Shown: positions 6,284 to 54,954 of the stretch, piece by piece
Position numbering within the stretch: position 1 is the stretch's first letter
Layout: the number at the start of each line of letters is the position of its first letter
NCBI RefSeq assembly: GCF_007833165.1
Contig: NZ_VOBQ01000025.1
Coordinates: forward strand, 1 to 64,000
Length of the DNA: 64,000 nucleotides
Source of the DNA: Caenimonas sedimenti
GTDB taxonomy: Bacteria; Pseudomonadota; Gammaproteobacteria; Burkholderiales; Burkholderiaceae_C
Reading direction: 5' to 3'
Notes under the pieces: generated by a model
Seen by the model: only the letters and a program-made list of their open reading frames with translations
What the model was told of the DNA's origin: nothing
The model's database searches: none
Position numbers and translations under genes: made by a program

Positions 6284-6949
6284 TCAGGCCCGGCGGGACC
6301 GCGTGCTGTCGGCCGGCACCGTGCTGTCCGGCAGCTCGAGGGCTTCGCCGGTGCGCTTGGGCGCCGAGTGCGGCACGATGTCCGAGATGTAGACCCGGTC
6401 CTTCACGTTGGGCGTGGAGACCTGCTCCAGTTCTTCGCCCATCGTGCGATTGAGCTGCGACAGCATGTGCATGCGCTTGTTGGAGTCGCGCAGCCGCTGG
6501 CTGACCGTGCGCAGGATCGACAGCAGCATCTTGCAGCCCAGCGCCGGCGATTCCTTGGCGAGGCGGTTGAACTGCGTCTGGCTCAGCGTGGCCAGGCCCA
6601 TGTCGGTGGCGGCCGTGACCGTGGCCGAACGCGCGCCGTTGTCGAGGATGCCCTGCTCGCCGATCAGGTCGCCCTCGCCGAGCACCTTCAGCATGATCGA
6701 CTCGCCGTGGCCCGAGCCCTGGGTTTCGACGGTGGCCTCGCCCTCGAGGATGAGCGCCATGAAGCTGGCGTTCTTCTGGCCTTCGTGGAACAGCACCGCC
6801 CCGGCTTTCACCTTCTGCGGCCGCATGTGTTCGACCAGGGCCACGCCCTCGGTCTGGTTCAACATCGCGAAGAGTTCGTGCGAACGCACCAGGTAGGCCA
6901 CGTCGCGGTGGCTCCATTCGCGTTCAGCTTTGCGGAAGAAGAGGGCCAT
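6284..6949 (-). CDS. Cyclic nucleotide-binding domain protein without output domain (paralog 1)
   Basis: 221 aa. A single Crp-like cNMP-binding beta-roll occupies about residues 40-150. The phosphate-binding cassette region reads GEQGILDNGARSATVTA, which keeps the GE and RSAT signature of cyclic-nucleotide binders. A helix follows (LLSILRTVSQRLRDSNKRM), resembling the Crp dimerisation helix, but no helix-turn-helix DNA-binding domain is present; the C-terminus is a polar tail. It may act by protein-protein interaction. It is adjacent to a same-strand paralog (7002-7658) and converges on the efflux pump gene. Ligand binding is inferred from family; whether cAMP or c-di-GMP binds is unknown. 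Confidence 0.82.
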   Translation of the reverse strand: MALFFRKAEREWSHRDVAYLVRSHELFAMLNQTEGVALVEHMRPQKVKAGAVLFHEGQKNASFMALILEGEATVETQGSGHGESIMLKVLGEGDLIGEQGILDNGARSATVTAATDMGLATLSQTQFNRLAKESPALGCKMLLSILRTVSQRLRDSNKRMHMLSQLNRTMGEELEQVSTPNVKDRVYISDIVPHSAPKRTGEALELPDSTVPADSTRSRRA

Positions 6950-7001
6950 GCCCGATGTTCGCCACCCGGCGGGGCGGCGTCAATGCCGATTACCTTGCTT
7001 C

Positions 7002-7658
7002 CTAGAGCTTTTGGGGCGGCTCCGTCGGCTCCGGCGGGGGGTCGAAGAAGGAGGAAGTGAGCTCGAGCGGCTTGGCGTCCAGGAAGACCGCCTTGGGCCG
7101 CGATGAAATCTCCAGGTCGAGCTCCTTCTTCAGCTTTCGGTTGCTGTCTTCCAACACGTGCGTGCGCTGGTTGGCTTCCCACAGCCGCGTGGTCACGGTG
7201 CGCAACATCGAGATGAGGATGGTGCAGCCGAGCGCCGGCTTGGCCTTGACCAGCTTGTCGAAGCGCGCGGAGTCGATCGACGCGAGCATCAGGTCGGTGC
7301 GCGCGGTGACTGTGGCCGAGCGTGGTGTTTCGTGGATGATGCCCTGCTCGCCGACCAGGTCGCCTTCCTTCAGGATGCCCAGCTGCACGGGCGCGCCCAG
7401 GCCCTGCCCCTCGGTCTCGGCCTTGGCCTCCCCGTCGAGGATGATCGCCATGAAGTTCTGGCTCTCGTCGCTGCGGCCTTCGCGAAACAGCACCTTGCCC
7501 GCTTCCAGTCGCATCGGGTGCATGTGCTGCACGAGCACGACGGCGTCCGCTTCGCTGAGCATCCGGAAGCGCTCGTGGCGGCGCACCAGCCGGGCGACGT
7601 CGTTGATGCTCCATTCGCGCTTGAAGGTGGCGTTGATGGAGGTGAAGAGTTCAAGCAT
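7002..7658 (-). CDS. Cyclic nucleotide-binding domain protein without output domain (paralog 2)
   Basis: 218 aa, clearly homologous along its length to the neighbour at 6284-6949: the same N-terminal pattern (REWSINDVARLVRRHERF), a cNMP-binding fold with GEQGIIHETPRSATVTAR, and the same post-barrel helix (ISMLRTVTTRLWEANQRT). It too lacks a DNA-binding domain. The C-terminus is Pro-rich. Tandem duplication is the simplest origin. It lies 4 bp after the heptose-phosphate adenylyltransferase gene on the same strand, so it is probably co-transcribed with it. Confidence 0.82.
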   Translation of the reverse strand: MLELFTSINATFKREWSINDVARLVRRHERFRMLSEADAVVLVQHMHPMRLEAGKVLFREGRSDESQNFMAIILDGEAKAETEGQGLGAPVQLGILKEGDLVGEQGIIHETPRSATVTARTDLMLASIDSARFDKLVKAKPALGCTILISMLRTVTTRLWEANQRTHVLEDSNRKLKKELDLEISSRPKAVFLDAKPLELTSSFFDPPPEPTEPPQKL

Positions 7659-44168: not shown

Positions 44169-44645
44169 TCAGCCACCGCGGCAGGAGCCGGGCAGGAACT
44201 TGGCGGGCATCGTGCCGGGGCCGCAGATCCACTTGTAGACCGGGGAGCCCATGTGGTTGGCCGTCGCCGGGTTCTTGACGGTGGTGGCGTCGTGGTACGG
44301 CGTCAGCGTGACGGTCATGTCGTCGATGGCGCTGTCGTTGAAGCCCGTGGCCGTGACGGTGATGATGCCCGCGCCGTCGGTGTTCACGCTCTTGACGTAC
44401 TTGCTCGCCTGGGTGGTCTGCTCGCAGCCCCAGCCGCCGGCGGAGATCGACGTGACGGAACCGGACTGGAACACTTCGGTGATGGTCGTGCGGCAAGCCG
44501 ACGCGGCCAGCACCACTTCGGACATCTTGGCCCGCTTGGTGTAGTCCTGGTACGCAGGCAGGGCCACGGCGGCCAGAATACCGATGATCGCAACGACGAT
44601 CATCAGTTCGATGAGGGTAAAGCCCTTTTGCAGTTGACGCTTCAT
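44169..44645 (-). CDS. Type IV pilin major subunit (PilA-like)
   Basis: 158 aa. Short positively charged leader MKRQLQKG, prepilin peptidase site G|FTLIE, and the hydrophobic assembly helix [20 protein letters not shown] (Glu5 present). The globular part has cysteines that can form two disulfides, including a C-terminal loop closed by GSCRGG. Preceded by GGAGG and a sigma-54 promoter. Located directly after the pilus-ATPase gene on the same strand, so it is probably the subunit served by that motor, or one of several pilins. Confidence 0.93.
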
Positions 44646-44682
44646 GGAACCTCCAGTGTGTGTTGAAGAAGCGATCGAATAT

Positions 44683-44698
44683 TGCAAACCGTGTGCCA
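44683..44698 (-). promoter_or_regulatory. Sigma-54 promoter of the pilin gene
   Basis: On the minus strand TGGCACACGGTTTGCA matches the -24/-12 consensus TGGCAC-N5-TTGC exactly. It lies 38 bp upstream of the pilin ATG, allowing a ~25-base leader. PilA genes in Pseudomonas and many betaproteobacteria are RpoN/PilR-dependent, so the match is expected. The activator site further upstream was not identified. Confidence 0.85.
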
Positions 44699-44793
44699 GG
44701 GCCAAAATGTGAACTTGTTGACACACTGGCCCCGGTTCAAGCCCGGCAGGCTGACACCGTTTGGCGAACCCGCTGACAAAAATTGTCGGCGGG

Positions 44794-47202
44794 CTACTTG
44801 ATGCAGACCGAGCGGACCTGCTTCAGGTCGGTCAGGCCGGCCATGACCTTTTCCATGCCGTCCATCTTCAGGGTGCGCATGCCCCCCGCGATGGCGGACA
44901 CGAACAGGTCGGCCACGCGGGCGCGCTCCTGAATGAGCTTCTTGGTCGGGTCGTCGCCGATCAGCAGCTCGTGCAGGCCGACCCGGCCCTTGTAGCCGGT
45001 CTTGTTGCACTTGTCGCAGCCGACCGACTTGTAGAACTTCAGCCGGCCGTTCTCGCCGTACATCTGGACCCAGCCTTCGTACAGCTTCTTGGCCTCGCCG
45101 GCGTAGTCGGCCTTCCAGGCCGGCGTGTGGCGCAGGTCTTCGACGTATTCGGCGATGAAGGTCTTGATCTCCTCCTGCTCCGGCAGGTAGACCTCCTTGC
45201 AGTCGCACAGGCGTTTGGCCAGCCGCTGCGCCAGGATGCCCAGCAGGGCGTCGGCGAAGTTGAACGGGTCCATGCCCATGTCGAGCAGACGCGTGATGGA
45301 CTCCGGCGCCGAGTTCGTGTGCAGCGTCGAGAACACCAGGTGGCCCGTGAGCGAGGCTTCGACGCCCATCGACACGGTTTCCTTGTCGCGCGATTCGCCG
45401 ACCATGATGATGTCCGGGTCGGCCCGCAGGAAGGCCCGCATGACCAGGGCGAAGTCAATGCCCGCTTTCTTGTTCACCTGCACCTGGCGCAGGCCACGCT
45501 GGGTGATTTCCACCGGGTCTTCGGCCGTCCAGATCTTGGTGTCCGGCGTGTTCAGGAACTTCAGCACCGAGTGCAGCGTGGTCGTCTTGCCGGAGCCCGT
45601 GGGACCGCAGACGTAGAATAGGCCGTAGGGCTTGGTGACGGTCTTCTCGAGGCGTTCCTTGTTGTGGGGCGACAGGCCCAGCTTGTCCATGGGGATGGGC
45701 TCGCCGGCGGCCAGGATACGCATCACGACGTCTTCGACGCCGCCGGCGGAGGGGATGGTCGCCACCCGCAGTTCGATGTCGAGCGGGCCGTATTTCTTGA
45801 ACTTGATCTTGCCGTCCTGCGGCTTGCGCTTCTCGGAGATGTCGAGGTCGCACATGATCTTCAGGCGCGTGGTCAATGCGGACCGGAAGTGGGCCGGCAC
45901 TTCGACGTAAGGCATGAGGCCGCCGTCGATGCGGAACCGGATGCCGGTCTTGGCCTTGCCGGGCAGCGGCTCGATGTGGATGTCCGACGCGCGCATGTTG
46001 TACGCGTCGATGATGATCTTGTTGACGAACTTCACCAGTTCGTTGTCGGCGGCGGCGGACTCGAGGTTGCCGGAATCGTCGGCCGGGCCGTCGTCCTCGC
46101 TCAGTTCGGCCAGCATCGACTCGACCGACTGGCCGCTGTCGCCGGGGGCGCCGTACAGCTGCGCGACCGTCTCCTCGAACTCGGTCTGCGTCGTCACCTT
46201 GTACAGGAAGCGGCTGTTGCGCGAGAACACCTGCGGGACGATCTTGGAGTTGCGCACCGCCTCCGGGTCCAGGCACATCACGATCAGGCCTTCGATGCCT
46301 TCCTCGAGCGGGATCCAGCCCTGCTCCTGGATGAAATCGCGCTTGAGCGCGCCCTGGAGCGTCTCGACCCGGATGCGGCCGGGGTTGAACGCTTCGTAGG
46401 GGACACCGAAGAACTTGGACAGCGACGGGCCGATCTGCGCGGGGCGGATCGAGTAGTCCGCCATCAGCACGTGCTCGACGGGCTTGGCATCCTCGCGGGC
46501 CTTCTGCACGGCCTTGGCCAGTTCGTCGTACGTCATCACGCCATCGGCGATCAGCCCGTCGTACTTGGTGGCCTTGCGGCGCGCGCCGTCACTGGCCTTC
46601 TCCACCCGCTGGCGGATGGCGGTGGCGAGCGTCTTGGTCAGCTGCGCCGCGCCCTCCATCTCGAGTTCGCCGAACGGCTGGTCGCTCTTGTTGTTGATGA
46701 CCTGGATGACCCCGTGCAGCACGTCGCCGTCGAGGATCGGCACCACCAGCATCTGCTTGGTGCGGTAGCCGGAGCGCTTGTCGACTTCCTTCAGGAAGGC
46801 GAGCTGCGGGTGGATGCGCTTCAACGCGTCGTCGTCGTAGACGTCGGCGATGTTCACCACCTGCTTGGCCATCGCGACGTAGCCCGCGATGCTCTGCGGG
46901 CTGATCGGCAGCTTCAGGTCGCGGCTGGTGTTCAGCCCGGTCTTGACCTTGGAGACGATGGAGGTGCGGTCCTCGCTGACCGCGTACAGCGTGAGACGGT
47001 CCGCGTTGAACAGCTTGCAGATGTCCGCGCTCACCTCGAGCATGATCTGGTCGACGTTCTCGGTCTCGTGGATCCGCGTCGTCACCTGCGTCAGCTGGCG
47101 GAAGAACAGGGCCTCGAACGAGATGCCGCGCTTGTCCGGCGGCAGCTGCTGCGAATCGATGAAGGCCTGTTCGGTGTCTTTCGTCTTCAGTACTGCATTC
47201 AT
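44794..47202 (-). CDS. GAF-domain type IV pilus / type II secretion ATPase (PilB/GspE family)
   Basis: 802 aa, ~230 longer than PilB because of an N-terminal GAF domain (about residues 40-200). That domain ends with [18 protein letters not shown], which resembles the NKFDE motif of cyclic-nucleotide-binding GAFs. Then come a GspE-N domain (about 215-345) and the hexameric ATPase: Asp box, GPTGSGKT at 533-540 (Walker A), [15 protein letters not shown] (Walker B, 595-603), THTLHTN-like [11 protein letters not shown] (His box) and the zinc-binding Cys clusters (CDC and CDKC). Drives pilus extension. It overlaps the phosphodiesterase gene by 4 bp and is the last gene of the signalling operon; the pilin follows 148 bp on. 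Confidence 0.93.
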
Positions 47203-47990
47203 AGCTCGAACTCCTGCCCTGCGCGCAACCAGCGGATGTCATGGACCACGTTCGGACCGAACGGCTGCGTCTGGTCGAACTTCTGGATCTCCGTCATGAT
47301 CAGCTCGGTTTCCGCGGGCTTGGTGTGGGTGATGAAGATCGGGAAGCGCTTGCTCTTGTCGATGCAGTCCAGCTCCTCGGCCAGGGCGTTCGGAGACAGG
47401 TGCAGGCTGCGCTTGGCAAGTTCCTTCTCGCGGTTGGAAAAAGCGGTTTCGATCACCAGCGCGGCGACGTTCATCTGGTTGATGCGGCGCCAGAAAGCCG
47501 GGTTGCGCTCGGTGTCGCCGGTGAACACCCAGCAGCCCCCGCCGGCGGTGACGGCATAGCCGCAGGCCGGCACGGTGTGCACGGCCGGCAGGACCTCGAT
47601 GTGCTTGCCGTTCAGGTGCAGCGTCTGGCCGACCTGGATCTCGTGGAACGTGATGAAGGGCGCCTGCGGTGTCGGGATGCGGCTGAAGTCCGGCCAGATC
47701 ACGTTGTTGAACACGTGCTGCTTGAGTGCCTGCAACGTGCCGGGCAGGGCGGAGATCTTGATCGGGGCGGTGAGCGTGGAGGCGATCGCGTCGACCATTA
47801 ACGGAAGCGCGGCGACGTGATCCAGGTGGGAGTGGGTGAGCAGGACATGCTTGATGCCCTTCATCTCTTCGAGGGTGAGATCGCCCACGCCGGTGCCCGC
47901 GTCGACCAGAAGGTCGCCGTCGATCAGAAAGGACGTGGTCTTGCAGTCCTTTGCGATCGCACCGGAGCAGCCCAGCACGCGCACCCTCAT
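47199..47990 (-). CDS. Metallo-beta-lactamase-fold 3',5'-cyclic-nucleotide phosphodiesterase-like protein
   Basis: 263 aa. Metal-binding motif HSHLDHV around residue 54, with further ligands in VHTVPACG, FTGDTERN and the final HTKP. The H-x-H-L-D-H string followed by a hydrophobic helix matches the class II cyclic-nucleotide phosphodiesterase signature (yeast Pde1 group) more than generic hydrolases. Between an adenylate cyclase and a pilus ATPase it is well placed to hydrolyse cAMP. Substrate is inferred; RNase Z-like or glyoxalase-like activity is the alternative. Confidence 0.75.
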   Translation of the reverse strand: MRVRVLGCSGAIAKDCKTTSFLIDGDLLVDAGTGVGDLTLEEMKGIKHVLLTHSHLDHVAALPLMVDAIASTLTAPIKISALPGTLQALKQHVFNNVIWPDFSRIPTPQAPFITFHEIQVGQTLHLNGKHIEVLPAVHTVPACGYAVTAGGGCWVFTGDTERNPAFWRRINQMNVAALVIETAFSNREKELAKRSLHLSPNALAEELDCIDKSKRFPIFITHTKPAETELIMTEIQKFDQTQPFGPNVVHDIRWLRAGQEFEL

Positions 47991-48004
47991 TCAACGCCCC
48001 TCAG

Positions 48005-50254
48005 TCACTTGGTCTCGAAATTGGTGGCGCCGTCCCACGCGGGATCGAACGGCAGCAACCTCATCGAGGCTACACGTTCGGAGTACACCTCGTAAAGGTA
48101 TTTTTTTGCATTCATGCGCTGGAGATTGAGCATGTGCAAGTCGCACTGGTCCCAGTCCTGGGCGCGGTACGACTTCAGGAAGGCGGCCCAGGTCTTGAGC
48201 TCCTCCACGGTGCCTTTTTCGACGCGGTCGGAGGGCGCGACGGGCCAGAAGATCGCCACGGCCTGCTCCTTGCCCTTCACCCGCACGCGATCCAGCTCCT
48301 GCCAGGCGAAGTCCGGGGCGGCCCGGCGGCAGCTTTCGCTGACCACGATGTCCACCCCGTACGCCTTGGAGAGGCCTTCCAGCCGGGAGCCCAGGTTCAC
48401 CGAATCGCCGATCACGGTGTAGCTGCGGCGGATGTGCGAACCCATGTCACCGACGCACATCATTCCCGTGTTCAACCCGATGCCGACGCCGATCTCGGGT
48501 ATACCCTGAGCGCGATGCTCCTCGTTGATCTTGCGCACCGCATTGGCCATTTCCATCGCCGACTTGACGGCCAGCTGCGCGTGGTTCGGCGTGTCCACCG
48601 GCGCCCCCCAGAACGCCATCACGCAGTCGCCCATGTATTTGTCGATGGTGCCCCGGTTGGACCGGATCAGGTCGGTCAGCCGGCTGAACACGGAATTCAG
48701 CAATTCCTGCAGCTTGGTCGGCTCCATCCGCTCCGACATCTTCGTGAAGCCGCGCATGTCGCAGAACATCACGGTCAGCTCCTTGTTGCTGGCCGCCATG
48801 CTGTAGTTCTCGGGCGCCTTCACCATCTCGTCCACCAGTTCGGGCGGGACGTAGGTGCCGAACAGGTTGGCCAGTTCGCGCTTGCTGCGGCTCTCGACGA
48901 AGTAGCCATAGCTCATGTTGAGCGCGAAGGCGGTGATCGCCATGATGAGGGCGGATGCGAGCGGCATCACCAGGCCCTGGGTCTGGAACAGGTAGAAGTT
49001 CTGCACCACGAGCAGGATGACCATCAGCACGCTGACCGCGACGGCCCGGGTGGCCGAGAGGATGGGGAGGGCGAAAGCGAGCAGCAGGCCCGCGAACAGC
49101 AGCACGACCACCTCGTAGCCCATGGCGTAATCGGGCTTCACGAACAGCTTGTCGTCGAGCAGCCCCGAGATGACATTGGCGTGGACCTCCACCCCGGGAT
49201 AGGTTTCCCCGACGGGCGTCACGCGCAGGTCGAGCAGGCCGGGCGCCGTGGTGCCCAGCAGGATGATCTTGCCCTTCAGGCTGCCCTCGGGCAGGCGTTT
49301 CGCGAGGACGTCGGCGGCCGAGATGTACCGGAATGACTGCCCCCCGACCCCACCCGGGCCACGATAGGGGACGAGCGCCGCCACCCGGCTGTCCACCGGG
49401 ACGGCCAGCGACTTGTCGCCCTGGCGCAGGATGATGCTCTCGAGCCCGGTGTAGCCGCGCCCGATGAAGCGGTCCCTGGGGAAGCCAGGCTGCACCTGCG
49501 GCTGCCCCGCGAGCATGCGGAACATCGACAGCGAGAGCGATTCGTAATAGTTGCCCTTGTATTCCGCCACCAGGGGAATCGAGCGGACCACGCCGTCGCC
49601 GTCGGTGATGGAGTTGAAGTACCCGGCGACCGGCGCCGCCTTCGCGACCTGCTCGATGTTGGAGCCGAACCCGTTCCAGCTGGTGAACGCGATGGGGCGG
49701 CCCTGCATGGCCTCCCTGGTCATGACCGGGGCCGGGAGCATGCCGTTCGTGCGGCCCTCGCGGTCGCTGGTGAAGTAGTAGCCCATGACCACCGGCCGCT
49801 GCTCCAGCGAGCGGGCGAACATGCTGTCGTAGTCGAGCGTGCCGCGCAGCTGCGCGAGCCGCTCGGTGAACGCGGGAGCATCCTTCAGCTCCCCCTTCGA
49901 CAGTTCATCCAGCCGCGCCAGGCCGGAACTCTGGTCGGGCTCGGCGAACACCACGTCGAAGCCCAGCAGCGCGGCCTTCTGCCGGTTGAAGACCTCGTCG
50001 ACCAGCCCGGCCAGGCGGTTGCGCCCCCAGGGCCAGCGCCCGACCTCGGCCAGGCTCTTCTCGTCGATGTCGATCACGACGATGCGTTCGTCCAGCGTCT
50101 TGGGCATCGTCGCCCGCAGCCGCGCGTCGTAGATGATGTCGTCCAGCCGCTGCAGCACCCCGATCGGCAGTACGCCGGTGGCGTGCAGCAGCGCGAAGAC
50201 CAGCGGAATCAGCGTGATGCCGATGCGGGGCCAGTGTTTGATCAGCAAGCCCAT
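48005..50254 (-). CDS. CHASE2-domain class III adenylate cyclase
   Basis: 749 aa. An N-terminal helix leads to an extracytoplasmic CHASE2 sensor (about 40-370, with IDIDEKSLAEVGRWPWGRNR), three membrane helices (about 380-450) and a cytosolic class III cyclase (490-680). Metal aspartates D499 (FCDMRGFT) and D543 (KYMGD), adenine-selecting K539 and D617, and transition-state N620/R624 are all present, so the domain should make cAMP rather than cGMP. C-terminal ~70 residues are helical. It shares the sensor type with the kinase at the head of the operon and is followed 14 bp later by the phosphodiesterase. Confidence 0.93.
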   Translation of the reverse strand: MGLLIKHWPRIGITLIPLVFALLHATGVLPIGVLQRLDDIIYDARLRATMPKTLDERIVVIDIDEKSLAEVGRWPWGRNRLAGLVDEVFNRQKAALLGFDVVFAEPDQSSGLARLDELSKGELKDAPAFTERLAQLRGTLDYDSMFARSLEQRPVVMGYYFTSDREGRTNGMLPAPVMTREAMQGRPIAFTSWNGFGSNIEQVAKAAPVAGYFNSITDGDGVVRSIPLVAEYKGNYYESLSLSMFRMLAGQPQVQPGFPRDRFIGRGYTGLESIILRQGDKSLAVPVDSRVAALVPYRGPGGVGGQSFRYISAADVLAKRLPEGSLKGKIILLGTTAPGLLDLRVTPVGETYPGVEVHANVISGLLDDKLFVKPDYAMGYEVVVLLFAGLLLAFALPILSATRAVAVSVLMVILLVVQNFYLFQTQGLVMPLASALIMAITAFALNMSYGYFVESRSKRELANLFGTYVPPELVDEMVKAPENYSMAASNKELTVMFCDMRGFTKMSERMEPTKLQELLNSVFSRLTDLIRSNRGTIDKYMGDCVMAFWGAPVDTPNHAQLAVKSAMEMANAVRKINEEHRAQGIPEIGVGIGLNTGMMCVGDMGSHIRRSYTVIGDSVNLGSRLEGLSKAYGVDIVVSESCRRAAPDFAWQELDRVRVKGKEQAVAIFWPVAPSDRVEKGTVEELKTWAAFLKSYRAQDWDQCDLHMLNLQRMNAKKYLYEVYSERVASMRLLPFDPAWDGATNFETK

Positions 50255-50302
50255 GGGCCCGGTTTCTCGGCGTGCGGGCGGACAGCGCGTGCGCGGCGGC
50301 CG

Positions 50303-51007
50303 TCAGGCCGCTTGCACGAATTGCATCTGGGTGCCCGCGAGCTCCAGCATGTCGCCGTTCTTCAGGGTCACCGGCTCGGGGCCGATGGCGGCGCCGTTCA
50401 GGGTGGGCTTGTTCGCGCCCTCGACGTGCGCGACCACGAAGCCGTTCGACCGCTTGGTGATGGCCGCCACGGCGACGCCGGGCTTGCCGATCGTCGTGAC
50501 CACCTTCACCAGGGGCACCTCGCGGCCGGCCGCGGCGCCGGACAGCACCTTGATGCTGGCGTTGAGCGCGGCCGCGACCTCGGCGGGCGCGGCGCCGGCG
50601 ACGGCACTGGCGCCGGCCGTCGCGGGTTGGGGCGCGCCGCCGGCGGGCGCCGCCGGTTTGGGGATCGGAGGCACGGAGCCGGCCTTCATGATCATCGTCT
50701 TCTCGAACGTGACGCCGGGCGCCTCGTTGATGAACTTGATCTTGTACTTGCCGATCTCGACAGTGTCGTTATTCTGCAACAACTGCTTCTTCACAGCCTT
50801 GCCGTTGACGTACGTGCCGTTCGTGCTGTTGAGGTCTTCGAGGTAAACCTCGTTGCCGGTGAGTTGCAGCACGGCGTGCTCGCCGCTGACCGCGAGGTTG
50901 TCGATCACGATGTCGTTGTACGGCCGGCGACCCAGTGTCGTCCGGTCTTTTGTCAACTGCACTTCCTTGATGACTACACCGTCGATCGAGACGATCATTT
51001 TCGGCAT
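50303..51007 (-). CDS. Double FHA-domain protein
   Basis: 234 aa, cytoplasmic. The first FHA domain (about 20-95) has the phosphothreonine-binding residues: GRR in TTLGRRPYNDIVID, SGEHA and NSTNGTYVNG. A Pro/Ala linker with FEKTMIM (Thr104) follows. The second FHA domain (150-230) is degenerate: GKPGVAV replaces GR, and only the terminal KPTLNG loop is clear. It is probably the phospho-reader for the kinase two genes upstream; both proteins share the KTx(V/I)M motif. Separated by 48-49 bp from its neighbours. Confidence 0.88.
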   Translation of the reverse strand: MPKMIVSIDGVVIKEVQLTKDRTTLGRRPYNDIVIDNLAVSGEHAVLQLTGNEVYLEDLNSTNGTYVNGKAVKKQLLQNNDTVEIGKYKIKFINEAPGVTFEKTMIMKAGSVPPIPKPAAPAGGAPQPATAGASAVAGAAPAEVAAALNASIKVLSGAAAGREVPLVKVVTTIGKPGVAVAAITKRSNGFVVAHVEGANKPTLNGAAIGPEPVTLKNGDMLELAGTQMQFVQAA

Positions 51008-51056
51008 GGCCCACTCCTGTCTGATGAATTCAACACGGCTCTTCTAATACCAAAGA

Positions 51057-51842
51057 CTATTGTCCCAGCAATCGCGAAATCAGGCCCCGTTTTTTGGAGC
51101 CCGTCGATGCCAATGCAAGCAGGACGGAGATGTTGTCGCGCCCGCCGTTGGCGTTCGCGGCATCGATCAAATGCGCCACCTTCTGGTCGAGAGTCTCCTC
51201 GACCAGCATCAACTTCTCGATGGCGTCGTCTTCCAGCATGTCCGACAACCCGTCGGAACACATCATGTAGAGATCGCCCGGTTCGACCTTGTGTTCGTTG
51301 ACCTCGAGCAGCACCGCATCCTCGACGCCGAGGGCGCGCGTCACCAGGTTCTTGTTGGTGGAGGTCGCGGCCTGCGCCGCGGTGATGAGCCCGGCGTCCA
51401 TCTGCTCCTGCAGCAACGAGTGGTCCTTGGTGACCCGCTCCAGCTTGCCCGCGCGCAGGCGGTAGCAGCGCGAATCCCCGATGTGCCCCAGCATCACCCG
51501 GCCGTCCTGGAACACGCCGAGCACCAGGGTCGTGCCCATGCCGCTGTATTGCGGGTTCGAGTTCGCGGCATTGAAGATCGAGCGGTTCGCGTTGTCGACG
51601 CAGATCTCCATGGCGCGGCGCACCTCGCGGCCGTTCGCGTGCCGGCCGGCCTGCGCCAGCCAGCGTCCCAGCTCGGACTTGATGAAGGTGGTGGCCATGC
51701 CGCTGGCGATCTCGCCGGCGTTGTAGCCCCCCATGCCGTCGGCCAGGATGCCGAGCCGCGTGGGCTCATCGAACGTCACCGAATCCTCGTTGTTCTCGCG
51801 CGCCAGACCCGGATCGGTGCGAATGCAAAACTCGTAGTTCAT
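51057..51842 (-). CDS. PP2C-family Ser/Thr phosphatase
   Basis: 261 aa, cytosolic. All metal-binding motifs are intact: ENNEDS, LADGMGGYNAGE, GHIGDSRCYRL, MCSDGLSD and GGRDNIS. Belongs to the PphA/Stp/PrpC-type stand-alone phosphatases that counter Hanks-type kinases. It begins 10 bp after the kinase stop, so it is very likely expressed with it and reverses its phosphorylations. I used the ATG at 51842, which begins the conserved N-terminal strand (NYEFCIRTDPG). Confidence 0.93.
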   Translation of the reverse strand: MNYEFCIRTDPGLARENNEDSVTFDEPTRLGILADGMGGYNAGEIASGMATTFIKSELGRWLAQAGRHANGREVRRAMEICVDNANRSIFNAANSNPQYSGMGTTLVLGVFQDGRVMLGHIGDSRCYRLRAGKLERVTKDHSLLQEQMDAGLITAAQAATSTNKNLVTRALGVEDAVLLEVNEHKVEPGDLYMMCSDGLSDMLEDDAIEKLMLVEETLDQKVAHLIDAANANGGRDNISVLLALASTGSKKRGLISRLLGQ

Positions 51843-51852
51843 GGTTGCCGGA

Positions 51853-54800
51853 TCAAGGCTCCTGGTCGGTCTTTCCGCCGCCGGCACCGGGCGCACCGGG
51901 CGCCGCGGGCTTTGTCATCACGGAGGTCTTGTCGAACTGGGGACCTTGACCGGCCCCCCCTTGTTTCTGGGCCGCATCATAGCCGGGCGCGGCCGAGGCA
52001 GGCTGGGTGGCCGCGAATGCGGGACCGCTGCCGGGGCCGGAAGGCACCGTCGCCGCGAAGCCCGGGGCGTTGCCAGCGGGTACCGTGGCGGCGAACTGCG
52101 CGTTGCCCGCGGGCACCGTGGCCGCGAAGCCGCGCGCGGCCGAGGCCGGCTGCGTGGCTTCGAAATTCACGCCCGCGCCGGCCGCCGGCGCGGCCCCGGG
52201 CGCCATGACGAGGGTCTTCTCCGCCTGCGCGGCGGCCGCGCCGGGCGGCGGCCGCTGGAAGGCCGCGGTCTTCTCGGCGGCGCCCGTTGCCGCGGCGACG
52301 GCGGACACCGCCGGTGCGGGGCGCGCCGCCTGGGGAGCCGCAGCCGGCGCGGCTGCGCGCATCGGCGCGGTGGCACCGCCCGTCATGTCGTTGATCACCT
52401 GCTTCAGCGCGGCCGCGAACGTGTCGCCGTCCTGGTAGCGGGCCTCGGACTTCTTGGCGAGCGAGAAGGCGACGATCTCCGCCAGCTGCGGCGACACGTC
52501 CTTGCGGATCAGGCGGATGTCGGGCGCCTCCTCGTTGGCGATCTTGTACATCAGCTCCGCCATCGAATCGCCGCGGAACGGCAGCACGCCCGTGAGCATC
52601 TGGAACAGCATCACGCCCAGCGAATAGAGGTCCGAGCGGCCATCGACCTTCTTGCCCGCGATCTGCTCGGGCGACATGAAGCTGGGCGTGCCCAGCACCA
52701 GGCCCGTCTTGGTCTTGCTGGAGTCGGTGATGCGCGCGATGCCGAAGTCGGTGACCTTCACCACGTCGCTTTCCGGCTCGTACATGATGTTGGCCGGCTT
52801 GATGTCGCGGTGCACGACGTTCTGCCGGTGCGCATAGGCGAGCGCCTCGGCGACGCGGGCGACGATCGAGAGCACCCGCGGGATCGGCAGCAGGTGGCCG
52901 TCCTTGCACTGGTCGACCAGGTCCTTGCCCTTCAGGAATTCCATGGCGATGTAGGCCAGCTCGTGTTCCTCGCCCGCGTCGAAGATGGTCACGATGTTCT
53001 GGTGCTGCAGCCGGCCCGCCGTCTCGGCCTCGCGGAAGAAGCGTTCGCGCGCGTCGTTCAGCTCCTCGCCTTCGAACTCGTTCGACAGGGCCATGGTCTT
53101 GATGGCCACGACACGGCCGATCTTCGGGTCCTTGCCCAGGTAGACCACGCCCATCGCGCCCTTGCCGAGCTCCTTCTCGACCTGGTAGCGGCCCAGCATC
53201 GGCTTCTCGACGCCGCCGCCATCGAGCAGCATGGTGCCGCCCGGATGGCCGCCGCCGCCGCCGAGGATGACCGTCTCGGAGAGGTTCTTCGCGCGATTGA
53301 GCTTGGCTTCGAGGTCCTTGTACTTCGGGTTGAAGGCGGCCATGTGCTCGTACACGGCCTGCGCCTTGTTGAACTGCCGCTTGCGCTCGAAGTCCAGCGC
53401 GAGGTTGTAGAGGTTGCCCATCACCTCGTCGCCCATGGGCACGCGGCGGAAGCGGTCGAAGGCCTGGTCGAGCCGGCCCTGGCCCTGCTCCGCCAGGCCC
53501 ATCATGCGGTTCGTCTCGGCGGATTCCGCGTCCGACTTCAGCTTGCCGGCCTCGGTGACCAGGAAGCGCTTGGTCGTGAGCGCGAGGTGCCCGATCACGA
53601 GCAGCATCGCCGGGTAGACCAGTGGCAACCAGGTCGACGCGCCGGCCAGCAAGCCGTATTCGGCCCCCAGCAGCACGATGAAGAGTGCGGCGGTGATGGC
53701 GCCGGACATGCCGGCGGACAGCCGCGGCAGCAGCCCGATCAGGTAGCCCGCCACCAGCAGGAACGCGCCGAGCGCCGCCCAGCGGCCCCAGCCGGGCTGG
53801 ACCAGGAAGTGCTCGCCGAGGATGCTGGAAGTGATGTGCGCGATCATCTCCACCGGTGTCAGCGCCGCATAGCCGGGGGCAGGGAACTGCACACCGACGC
53901 CGGCCGCGGTGGGACCGATGATCACGATCTTGTTGGCGTACTTCGCGGCCGGGATCTTTCCGGAGAGCACGTCGTAGAAGGAATCCACCGCGAAGGCCGG
54001 CTTGGCGCCCGTGCCCTTGTAGAACTGCGGCAGCATGCGGGCGGATTCATCGGTCTTCACGCGCAGCTTGCCGATCTGCACCGACTCGCCCGTGTTCAGC
54101 CGGATGTCCTTGGGCGAAAGATTCAGGCTCTGGGCCGCCGCCATCAGGGCCATCGAGGGAACGGCCTTGCCGTAATAGTTGACCAGCATCGGCTCGGTGC
54201 GGACCGCGCCGTCGACGTCGTTGAGCTGGTTCAGGTGCCCGATGCCGGCGGCGGCGTTGCCGATCGAGTCGATCGGCTGCGTCGTCGACACGGCCAGCAC
54301 CGAAAAACCGTTGTTCTCGTCGATCGCGCTTTTCAGGGCAAAGGCCGGCAGGGGCTTGTCGGCCTTGCCCTGCGGTTCGCCCAGCACGAAATAGGAGGGC
54401 ACCAGCACGTTGCCCGCCTTGGTCATGCTGGCGGCGAGCTTGCCGTCGGTGTCGAGGGCCTGTTCGGCCTCGGCGATGAGCTTGGACACGGGATCCTGCG
54501 GCGCGGGCGCCGGAGCCGCGGCCGCCGGCGCGGCGGGGTCCAGCGCCGAAGGGGCCGCCGCGGGCGCGGCGGGAGCGCCCAGGCCCAGCGTTTCCTTGAT
54601 CTTGCGGATGTAGACCAGGCCGCGGTCGGTCTGGGGCTCGAAGAAGAACGCGTTGTAGACGACCGTTTTCGCCTTCGCGGCGGCGAGCATGTCGATCATC
54701 TGCGCATGGACGTCGCGGGACCAGGGCCAGCGCCCGATGTTGGCGATGCTCTGGTCGTCGATGGCGATGATGGCGATGCGGTCGGAGGGCTGGCGGTTGC

Positions 54801-54954
54801 CGCTGGTGGCGGCGAAGTCGTAGTAGCGGCGCTCGAGGGTGCCGATGAAGTCGGTGCCGAGGTTGAGGATGACGACGGCCAGCACCACCAGGACGCCCAC
54901 GAACCAGTCGCTGCGCCAGAACTTCCCGCGCTTAGCGGATGATGATGTGCTCAC
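51853..54954 (-). CDS. CHASE2-domain Hanks-type Ser/Thr protein kinase
   Basis: 1033 aa from GTG 54954 (ATG 55008 would add 18 poorly fitting residues). Membrane helix (17-32), CHASE2 sensor (about 40-385, with IDDQSIANIGRWPWSR), three helices (393-460), a TPR-like helical segment (485-550) and a kinase domain (590-850): GKGAMG loop, K619, HRD (D717), DFG (D737), APE-equivalent SPEQ. The 170-residue tail is Ala/Pro-rich and carries repeated threonine motifs: FAAT/FEAT followed by V/Q-P five times, plus EKTLVM (T914) and FDKTSVM (T1010). First gene of the signalling-pilus operon. Confidence 0.94.
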   Translation of the reverse strand: MSTSSSAKRGKFWRSDWFVGVLVVLAVVILNLGTDFIGTLERRYYDFAATSGNRQPSDRIAIIAIDDQSIANIGRWPWSRDVHAQMIDMLAAAKAKTVVYNAFFFEPQTDRGLVYIRKIKETLGLGAPAAPAAAPSALDPAAPAAAAPAPAPQDPVSKLIAEAEQALDTDGKLAASMTKAGNVLVPSYFVLGEPQGKADKPLPAFALKSAIDENNGFSVLAVSTTQPIDSIGNAAAGIGHLNQLNDVDGAVRTEPMLVNYYGKAVPSMALMAAAQSLNLSPKDIRLNTGESVQIGKLRVKTDESARMLPQFYKGTGAKPAFAVDSFYDVLSGKIPAAKYANKIVIIGPTAAGVGVQFPAPGYAALTPVEMIAHITSSILGEHFLVQPGWGRWAALGAFLLVAGYLIGLLPRLSAGMSGAITAALFIVLLGAEYGLLAGASTWLPLVYPAMLLVIGHLALTTKRFLVTEAGKLKSDAESAETNRMMGLAEQGQGRLDQAFDRFRRVPMGDEVMGNLYNLALDFERKRQFNKAQAVYEHMAAFNPKYKDLEAKLNRAKNLSETVILGGGGGHPGGTMLLDGGGVEKPMLGRYQVEKELGKGAMGVVYLGKDPKIGRVVAIKTMALSNEFEGEELNDARERFFREAETAGRLQHQNIVTIFDAGEEHELAYIAMEFLKGKDLVDQCKDGHLLPIPRVLSIVARVAEALAYAHRQNVVHRDIKPANIMYEPESDVVKVTDFGIARITDSSKTKTGLVLGTPSFMSPEQIAGKKVDGRSDLYSLGVMLFQMLTGVLPFRGDSMAELMYKIANEEAPDIRLIRKDVSPQLAEIVAFSLAKKSEARYQDGDTFAAALKQVINDMTGGATAPMRAAAPAAAPQAARPAPAVSAVAAATGAAEKTAAFQRPPPGAAAAQAEKTLVMAPGAAPAAGAGVNFEATQPASAARGFAATVPAGNAQFAATVPAGNAPGFAATVPSGPGSGPAFAATQPASAAPGYDAAQKQGGAGQGPQFDKTSVMTKPAAPGAPGAGGGKTDQEP

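Follow-up and report, generated by a model that had tools for sequence, protein, structure and literature searches.

A 64,000-nucleotide stretch of the Caenimonas sedimenti genome (contig NZ_VOBQ01000025.1, positions 1 to 64,000; hereafter the window) carries an operon that joins two CHASE2 receptor genes to a phosphatase, an FHA protein, a phosphodiesterase (PDE) and a PilB-type ATPase bearing a GAF domain (GAF-PilB). One receptor gene encodes a Ser/Thr kinase and the other a class III adenylate cyclase. The operon is real and widespread in the Burkholderiales. On balance, it probably encodes an order-wide circuit in which two receptors control an accessory type IV pilus ATPase by way of cyclic AMP (cAMP) and a phospho-switch. 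The two CHASE2 receptors would sit in the inner membrane and read an extracytoplasmic cue. One of them would drive the cyclase, the neighbouring metallo-PDE would remove the cAMP, and the GAF of GAF-PilB would read it, so that control of the motor would be direct, and not by way of a transcription factor alone. In fuller versions of the operon, a protein with a cyclic nucleoside monophosphate (cNMP)-binding and a rhodanese domain would also read cAMP, as would, perhaps, the GAF of an HD-GYP cyclic di-GMP (c-di-GMP) hydrolase. The other receptor would drive the Hanks kinase, whose targets would be its own SETVILGG motif and the FEKTMVLR-type motif of the FHA adaptor. Once phosphorylated, the adaptor would close on its own linker or dock on the kinase in the manner of GarA/OdhI, PP2C would reset it, and the adaptor would presumably hand its state to the pilus machine. 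A stricter form is advanced only tentatively: that cAMP from the CHASE2 receptor-cyclase of the same operon binds the GAF and gates the accessory extension ATPase directly, the kinase/FHA/PP2C phospho-switch being a second gate. The first-pass annotation of the window had proposed that two CHASE2 receptors feed a phosphorylation arm and a cAMP arm that meet on a pilus motor. That circuit is plausible and is now better founded in two places, the type of the GAF and the Thr motifs; its surface-sensing part is free inference.

The window belongs to a draft genome of 5.9 Mb that comprises 51 contigs. All features of the operon lie on the minus strand, and the six genes follow each other, in transcription order, as kinase, PP2C, FHA protein, cyclase, PDE and GAF-PilB, then the pilin. 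The kinase (54954-51853, GTG start, 1033 amino acids) has a CHASE2 domain at residues 24-402 (Pfam, 169 bits), a segment that reads as TPR-like, a Hanks Ser/Thr kinase domain at residues 590-840 (Pkinase, 182 bits) and a Thr-rich C-tail. The PP2C phosphatase (51842-51057; PP2C_2, 52 bits) is of the Stp1/IreP type (NF033484, 242.8 bits for a cut-off of 230). The FHA protein (51007-50303; Pfam FHA, 90 bits) consists of a first FHA domain (FHA1), a disordered linker and a second beta domain. The CHASE2 class III adenylate cyclase (50254-48005) scores 187 bits for CHASE2 and 93 bits for Guanylate_cyc. The PDE (47990-47199) has a metallo-beta-lactamase fold and is of class II type (PDEase_II, PF02112, 52.1 bits for a cut-off of 23.7). 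GAF-PilB (47202-44794; T2SSE, 370 bits; GAF, 45 bits) is followed by a PilA-like type IV pilin (44645-44169; Pfam Pilin, 59 bits, plus N_methyl). Intergenic gaps are 10 bp (kinase-PP2C), 49 bp (PP2C-FHA), 48 bp (FHA-cyclase), 14 bp (cyclase-PDE) and -4 bp (PDE-GAF-PilB, an ATGA overlap of start and stop); the pilin gene begins 148 bp beyond GAF-PilB. The open reading frame coordinates bear out the arrangement first described, and each gene name then given is backed by a Pfam score over its cut-off. The six genes are presumably co-transcribed.

A profile built on the N-terminus with its GAF finds GAF-PilB in 124/300 genomes, from 55/135 genera, of an order-wide sample (E <=1e-30). In a sample of the family, an orthologue with at least 58% identity over most of the protein occurs in 30 of 150 genomes among the matches listed; the orthologue of G055 is cut by a contig end, and that of G031 matches only from residue 207. 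Fragments occur in three genomes of this sample (G006, G040 and G083) among the matches listed, and small fragments in further family genomes may have escaped the match list. The one other genome of the same genus among the 150 (G097) has no match that strong among the matches listed. In a sample of the class, 14/369 genomes match; two of these are members of the order, and the other 12 matches are weak (97-204 bits). Among the best 80 of at least 589 matches, the nearest named relatives are mostly Ramlibacter records; carrier names include Ramlibacter, Rhodoferax, Polaromonas, Curvibacter, Hylemonella, Azospira and Propionivibrio, and many records are metagenome bins.

Gene neighbourhoods were compared at 132 loci with PilB: these 80 named loci (L031-L110), which are biased to close relatives by their selection as best matches, and 52 order loci (L175-L226), one per genus, hand-picked from the 124 matches. 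Loci with too little upstream DNA (33/132) were omitted from presence counts, which leaves 99 covered loci (55 named, 44 order). Gene presence was called by tblastn with two query sets, so that strongly diverged genes may be missed. All five partners adjoin GAF-PilB in 53/99 covered loci (31/55 named, 22/44 order). Their co-occurrence is not due to chance, because it recurs in half of the one-per-genus loci as well as in the named ones; a survey that could have found it absent thus leaves the proposed gene association standing. PP2C is present in 90/99 loci (53/55 named, 37/44 order), the FHA gene in 90/99 (54/55, 36/44), the PDE in 75/99 (37/55, 38/44), the kinase in 64/99 (38/55, 26/44) and the cyclase in 60/99 (34/55, 26/44). 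Detected genes follow the common order in 98/99 covered loci. The ATGA-type overlap of PDE and PilB is found in 26/100 loci, and also in the window. At two loci (L181, L197), about 3 kb of other DNA lies between PDE and PilB. The single exception to the common order (L222) has a kinase (41%), a PilB-like protein (40%) and a PP2C (35%) together in a differing layout, perhaps a parallel kinase-pilus ATPase system.

Changes in the two CHASE2 receptor genes tend to coincide on the PilB tree, which is in favour of the circuit first proposed. Kinase and cyclase are both present or both absent in 32 + 15 of 55 named loci and in 22 + 14 of 44 order loci. Joint change was tested on a quickly built PilB tree with 97 rows (two of the 99 covered loci were dropped), with independent pairs on supported branches and 200 random pairings. 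Fifteen pairs differ in the kinase; on average the cyclase differs the same way in 10.1 and the opposite way in 0.0 of them (once in a few pairings), with a median p of 0.002 (range 0.0002-0.04). Cyclase and PDE change the same way in 5.8/16 pairs and never the opposite way (p 0.03), as do PP2C and FHA in 6/7 pairs, again with no opposite case (p 0.03). On the same tree, the kinase-FHA association falls short of significance (median p 0.06), as does that between the cyclase and the cNMP-binding gene (median p 0.25). Retention of the kinase elsewhere in kinase-less genomes was mostly rejected: of 16 checked, only G171 has a near full-length match to the CHASE2 kinase away from the operon (G171:C1:3169847-3171988, 65% identity, one in-frame TGA). 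G181 has a partial match that starts at residue 378 (51%), and G217 has one to the kinase domain (58%).

The cAMP arm rests on the cyclase, the PDE and the GAF. Residues D499, K539, D543, T613, N620 and R624 of the cyclase are invariant in 83/83 sequences; we take them to be the two metal-binding Asp, the Lys/Thr pair that contacts the substrate and specifies ATP, and the Asn and Arg. By these residues the protein classes as a class III adenylate cyclase, with activity and ATP preference predicted. The HxHxDH motif of the PDE is invariant in 99/99 sequences. The GAF domain of GAF-PilB (residues 51-196; 46615..47052, minus strand) has as best solved relative 1YKD, the GAF tandem of an adenylyl cyclase from a cyanobacterium (E 8e-28 with the single sequence, 4e-31 with a profile), which we take to be CyaB2 with bound cAMP. 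The next matches are the GAF of an HD-GYP protein (7e-10), then those of PDE2, PDE10, PDE6 and PDE5; weaker ones are GAFs of a histidine kinase (3e-5) and of PtsP (7e-4). Entries for cyclic-nucleotide cyclases or PDEs make up 19/24 of the matched sequences, a count that is biased by itself because PDE GAFs are abundant in the PDB; the 1YKD score is free of this bias. Three of the 16 other GAF matches in the source genome served as controls: one matches a diguanylate cyclase only, one matches PtsP first and the cAMP-binding Lcd1 second (4e-8), and one has no match. Unlike the three controls, the PilB GAF has its nearest sequence relatives among GAFs of the cAMP/cGMP type. This suggests that cAMP may act on the motor itself through GAF-PilB. 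The A-G of IAG and the motif D-x2-[S/T]-G-Y-R-T are nearly invariant in the PilB GAF, and some of their positions align with what we assume to be the nucleotide contacts of PDE2A GAF-B.

Fuller operons, in Azospira, Propionivibrio and others, have a gene for a protein of about 360 amino acids between PDE and PilB. In the L105 protein a cNMP-binding domain (70 bits) precedes a rhodanese domain (55 bits), and no DNA-binding domain was recognised. The gene is present in 10/55 named and 8/44 order covered loci. An Arg of the cNMP-binding domain, presumably the phosphate-binding one, is kept in 26/26 sequences, and all 26 loci with the gene also hold the cyclase. A GAF-HD-GYP gene follows PilB in 10/46 named and 31/43 order loci with enough downstream DNA; its HD and HHExxDGxGY residues are kept in 57/57 sequences and the final Pro in 56/57. 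The GAF of one such protein (L097, 12321-13919) is closest to the GAFs of cGMP-specific PDE5 (E 1e-20), which suggests a cyclic mononucleotide input to c-di-GMP breakdown. The operon of the window has neither gene at the locus itself. Elsewhere in the source genome, no match resembling an orthologue of the cNMP-binding/rhodanese protein was found (best, 33.6 bits).

In the phosphorylation arm, the K, HRD and DFG residues of the kinase (K619, D717, D736) are invariant in 72/72 sequences, and its nearest solved relatives are PknA and PknB. A Thr motif of the ETV[IM]LG type lies ahead of the catalytic domain in 57/61 kinases; the copy of the window, SETVILGG (residues 559-566; 53257..53280, minus strand), is directly before the kinase domain. 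The Asp residues D35, D123, D197 and D236 of PP2C are invariant. The FHA domain is nearest to those of GarA and OdhI by sequence and by fold, the first fold match being the PknB-GarA complex, and ArnA FHA also appears among the PDB matches. Residues G26, R27, S41, H44 and N63, which we take to bind phosphothreonine, are kept in 103/103 sequences. The second beta domain appears to be at most a degenerate FHA; alone, it scores 18.3 bits and does not reach the cut-off of 20.7. Linker residues 97-146 are predicted to be disordered (predicted local distance difference test, pLDDT, <50; model mean 72.6). They include FEKTMIMK (residues 101-108; 50684..50707, minus strand), a near-invariant Thr motif directly C-terminal of FHA1. 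Its K-T-M is invariant in 12 aligned sequences, and Thr104 is a Thr in 89/103 sequences of a wider alignment. This motif is present in 62/64 FHA proteins with a local kinase and in 13/22 without (Fisher p 4e-5, ignoring relatedness). Both the FHA and the kinase motif have a hydrophobic residue at Thr+3, and such a residue suits FHA ligands. These features point to kinase autophosphorylation combined with an intramolecular or kinase-docked FHA switch, both presumed. The N-terminal ETTS-type motif, which we assume to be the hallmark of GarA/OdhI, was not found in the FHA protein, and the NCBIfam models OdhI and FhaB stay below their cut-offs; the protein would work like GarA and is not filed as GarA. 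The Thr-rich C-tail of the kinase (window 51854-52400) contains FAATVP/FEATQP repeats plus EKTLVM and FDKTSVM copies. EKT-type copies occur mainly in relatives from Ramlibacter, Rhodoferax and Polaromonas, and also in L095, L175 and L205; their appearance is that of additional Thr acceptor sites. The tail was rejected as the core phospho-acceptor, being short or absent in most kinases beyond these relatives; SETVILGG is the conserved motif.

GAF-PilB is an accessory paralogue by its sequence and not the main PilB, which corrects the first-pass picture of the pilus motor. It scores 462.9 bits (whole protein) on the PilB model TIGR02538, below the cut-off of 675.65, and a canonical PilB (818.5 bits) lies elsewhere in the genome, on contig C3, followed by genes resembling pilC, pilD and coaE (names that rest solely on gene order and protein starts). 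The genome has six ATPases that match the PilB model at E <=1e-60. At least one other ATPase of the PilB/GspE class is present in 24/24 genomes checked (G097, one of these, is without GAF-PilB), and in 11/24 it is above the PilB cut-off; this co-residence argues for GAF-PilB as an accessory motor. Its Walker A, Walker B and His residues are intact in 131/131 sequences. Downstream, a sigma-54-type (-24/-12) site, TGGCACACGGTTTGCA (44683..44698, minus strand), precedes the pilin gene and is the sole exact match in the window (0.04 expected). The pilin does stand beside the operon as first described, and because of this site it may be transcribed on its own.

Several observations weigh against the two-receptor circuit, and they are given here with the alternatives that they favour. 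The first alternative is that the PilB GAF senses something other than linked cAMP (another nucleotide, or redox), that cyclase and PDE have their effect elsewhere, through CRP-type regulators for instance, and that the operon does no more than co-express them. The ligands of GAF domains are diverse. The residues of the PilB GAF are equally conserved where a linked cyclase or PDE is missing, so that the linked cyclase need not be the source of its ligand: the GAF may read a different molecule, or cAMP that other cyclases make. In 16/99 covered loci the PDE is present and the cyclase absent, and the source genome has further cNMP-binding genes. The PDE also resembles RNase Z and other hydrolases, under their cut-offs, scores slightly higher for Lactamase_B_2 (59 bits) than for PDEase_II, and reaches 31 bits of the 400 needed for NF041851; given this likeness and the better Lactamase_B_2 score, its substrate is unproven, and a cyclic nucleotide is the putative one. 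By fold alone, GAFs of HD-GYP proteins, histidine kinases, PtsP and PDEs mix in an unspecific ranking (model pLDDT 78.9). The NKFDE motif, which we take as the hallmark of cyclic-nucleotide-binding GAFs, is only partly present: N170 and F177 are invariant, the position following N170 is most often Asn and less often Lys or Arg, and the D/E pair is not conserved. This alternative is nevertheless judged rather unlikely, in view of the 1YKD match, seen in none of the three control GAFs of the same genome (one of which has Lcd1 second), and of the cNMP-binding/rhodanese protein, without a recognised DNA-binding domain, between PDE and PilB in fuller operons. The claim that the cAMP arm meets on the motor is better supported than before because the GAF is of the cyclic-nucleotide type, while the equal conservation of this GAF without the cyclase tells against it. 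Joint decay of linked cyclase and GAF was tried and rejected: the GAF/ATPase divergence ratio does not differ, with medians of 1.82 beside the cyclase and of 2.00 and 2.09 in its absence (p 0.20 and 0.18). Just outside the window (G000:C14:76552-77412; L123, 14490-16331), behind a 1135-amino-acid gene, lies a second class III cyclase of the CHASE2 type (613 amino acids), which might supply additional cAMP. The source genome has one more CHASE2 match at G000:C11:153688-154506.

The second alternative is that PP2C, FHA protein and GAF-PilB form the working unit, with the CHASE2 receptors, cyclase and PDE as loosely attached accessories that come and go. The presence counts are in its favour, PP2C and FHA being the most frequent partners: the kinase is locally missing in 35/99 and the cyclase in 39/99 covered loci, and reduced versions have PP2C, FHA and PilB alone (for example L061, L062 and L075). 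The following points also weigh against the two-receptor circuit. None of the five partners is found at L191, L219 and L220, nor at 6/8 loci of distant GAF-PilB relatives outside the order. No evidence joins the FHA protein to PilB: the phosphorylation arm itself gains support from conserved Thr motifs in FHA protein and kinase, its reach to the motor does not, and the target of the adaptor is presumed. At L057 and L218 the FHA Thr motif is missing beside a local kinase, and the nine losses of this motif in kinase-less loci are all within the named set and thus represent few independent events among close relatives. A loose attachment is nonetheless quite improbable, because the gene order is shared by nearly all covered loci, kinase changes with cyclase and cyclase with PDE, PDE and PilB often overlap, and 9/22 kinase-less loci have lost the Thr motif. 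In the other two of the eight distant loci (L230, L233), a CHASE2 cyclase is nearby, and L230 also has PDE and HD-GYP matches; the link may therefore be older.

That GAF-PilB powers a secretion or DNA-uptake pseudopilus and not a type IV pilus, the circuit controlling secretion or competence, is equally doubtful: under the PilB cut-off GspE is nearly as good a model (463 against 430 bits), a canonical PilB and an apparent gsp cluster lie elsewhere in the genome, but PilB is the best family of the protein, in the window the next gene encodes a type IV pilin, and 52/97 loci have a pilin-like signal, which alone cannot separate pilins from pseudopilins, at most 3.5 kb downstream of PilB. That only 52/97 loci have this signal weighs against the two-receptor circuit.

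The two-receptor circuit resembles several known systems in part. In Pseudomonas aeruginosa, Pil-Chp, CyaB and Vfr comprise a chemosensory array and a CRP-type transcription factor. An adenylate cyclase is coupled to type IV pili in both cases; here, in contrast, there are two CHASE2 receptors, the pilus ATPase itself bears a GAF of the cyclic-nucleotide type, and no chemosensory genes were found among the six operon genes and the pilin (the search being that of the locus). GarA and OdhI act with PknB by a known mechanism. They share with the present set a PknB-like kinase and a small FHA protein whose FHA domain is flanked by a Thr motif, but here the motif (FEKTMIMK) comes after the FHA, a second beta domain is present and no link to 2-oxoglutarate metabolism was seen. 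MshE exemplifies the control of pilus ATPases by c-di-GMP through the MshEN domain. As in MshE, a messenger-binding domain is N-terminal to a PilB-type ATPase (PMC7690835); here, however, a GAF of the cyclic mononucleotide type is added, and MshEN is just at threshold in the window protein (23.7 bits for a cut-off of 23.1; 35 bits in an Azospira protein). Direct control of a pilus motor is cited for c-di-GMP and the Msh pilus of Vibrio cholerae (PMC7690835). In cyanobacteria, CHASE2 kinases are listed (PMC2176072), and cAMP works on pili via Cya1 and Sycrp regulators; in Synechocystis, Cya1, Sycrp1 and Sycrp2 likewise control piliation and motility through cAMP but act by transcription (PMC7690835). 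The Arn network of Sulfolobus regulates a type IV pilus-like machine with kinases, a phosphatase and an FHA protein; unlike the present set it is archaeal, controls archaellum expression and has no cAMP arm in the text available (PMC5300886). In Lcd1 of Leptospira (GAF-GGDEF; PDB 5w10), cAMP on a GAF sets the attached enzyme, but the output is c-di-GMP synthesis and not a pilus ATPase (PMC6416229). CyaD1, CyaD2 and CyaK of Sinorhizobium meliloti are CHASE2 cyclases reading an external cue, with the CRP-family regulator Clr as output (PMC13001267). The genome paper of Ramlibacter tataouinensis reports three PilB paralogues, and words beginning cyclase, chase or fha are absent from its main text as available (PMC3164672). 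No description of the present gene set was recognised in the open-licence PMC literature, although an earlier one may exist in subscription papers, and no described case of a pilus motor directly controlled by a cyclic mononucleotide was found in the same literature.

The cluster unites an adenylate cyclase, a PDE and a cyclic-nucleotide-type GAF on a pilus ATPase in one operon. A fast, post-translational cAMP route to a pilus motor, with a presumed ligand and a presumed direction of effect, thereby becomes testable in free-living bacteria. It also provides a bacterial set of Hanks kinase, PP2C and FHA protein whose target process is suggested by its neighbours. The operon was also considered as a defence system and rejected, PADLOC giving generic kinase, phosphatase, cyclase and ATPase-domain matches only. 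Scans for sigma-70-type promoters and terminators gave no signal exceeding chance. Elsewhere in the window (6551-7547, minus strand), two adjoining cNMP-binding (CRP/FNR-like) matches are found.

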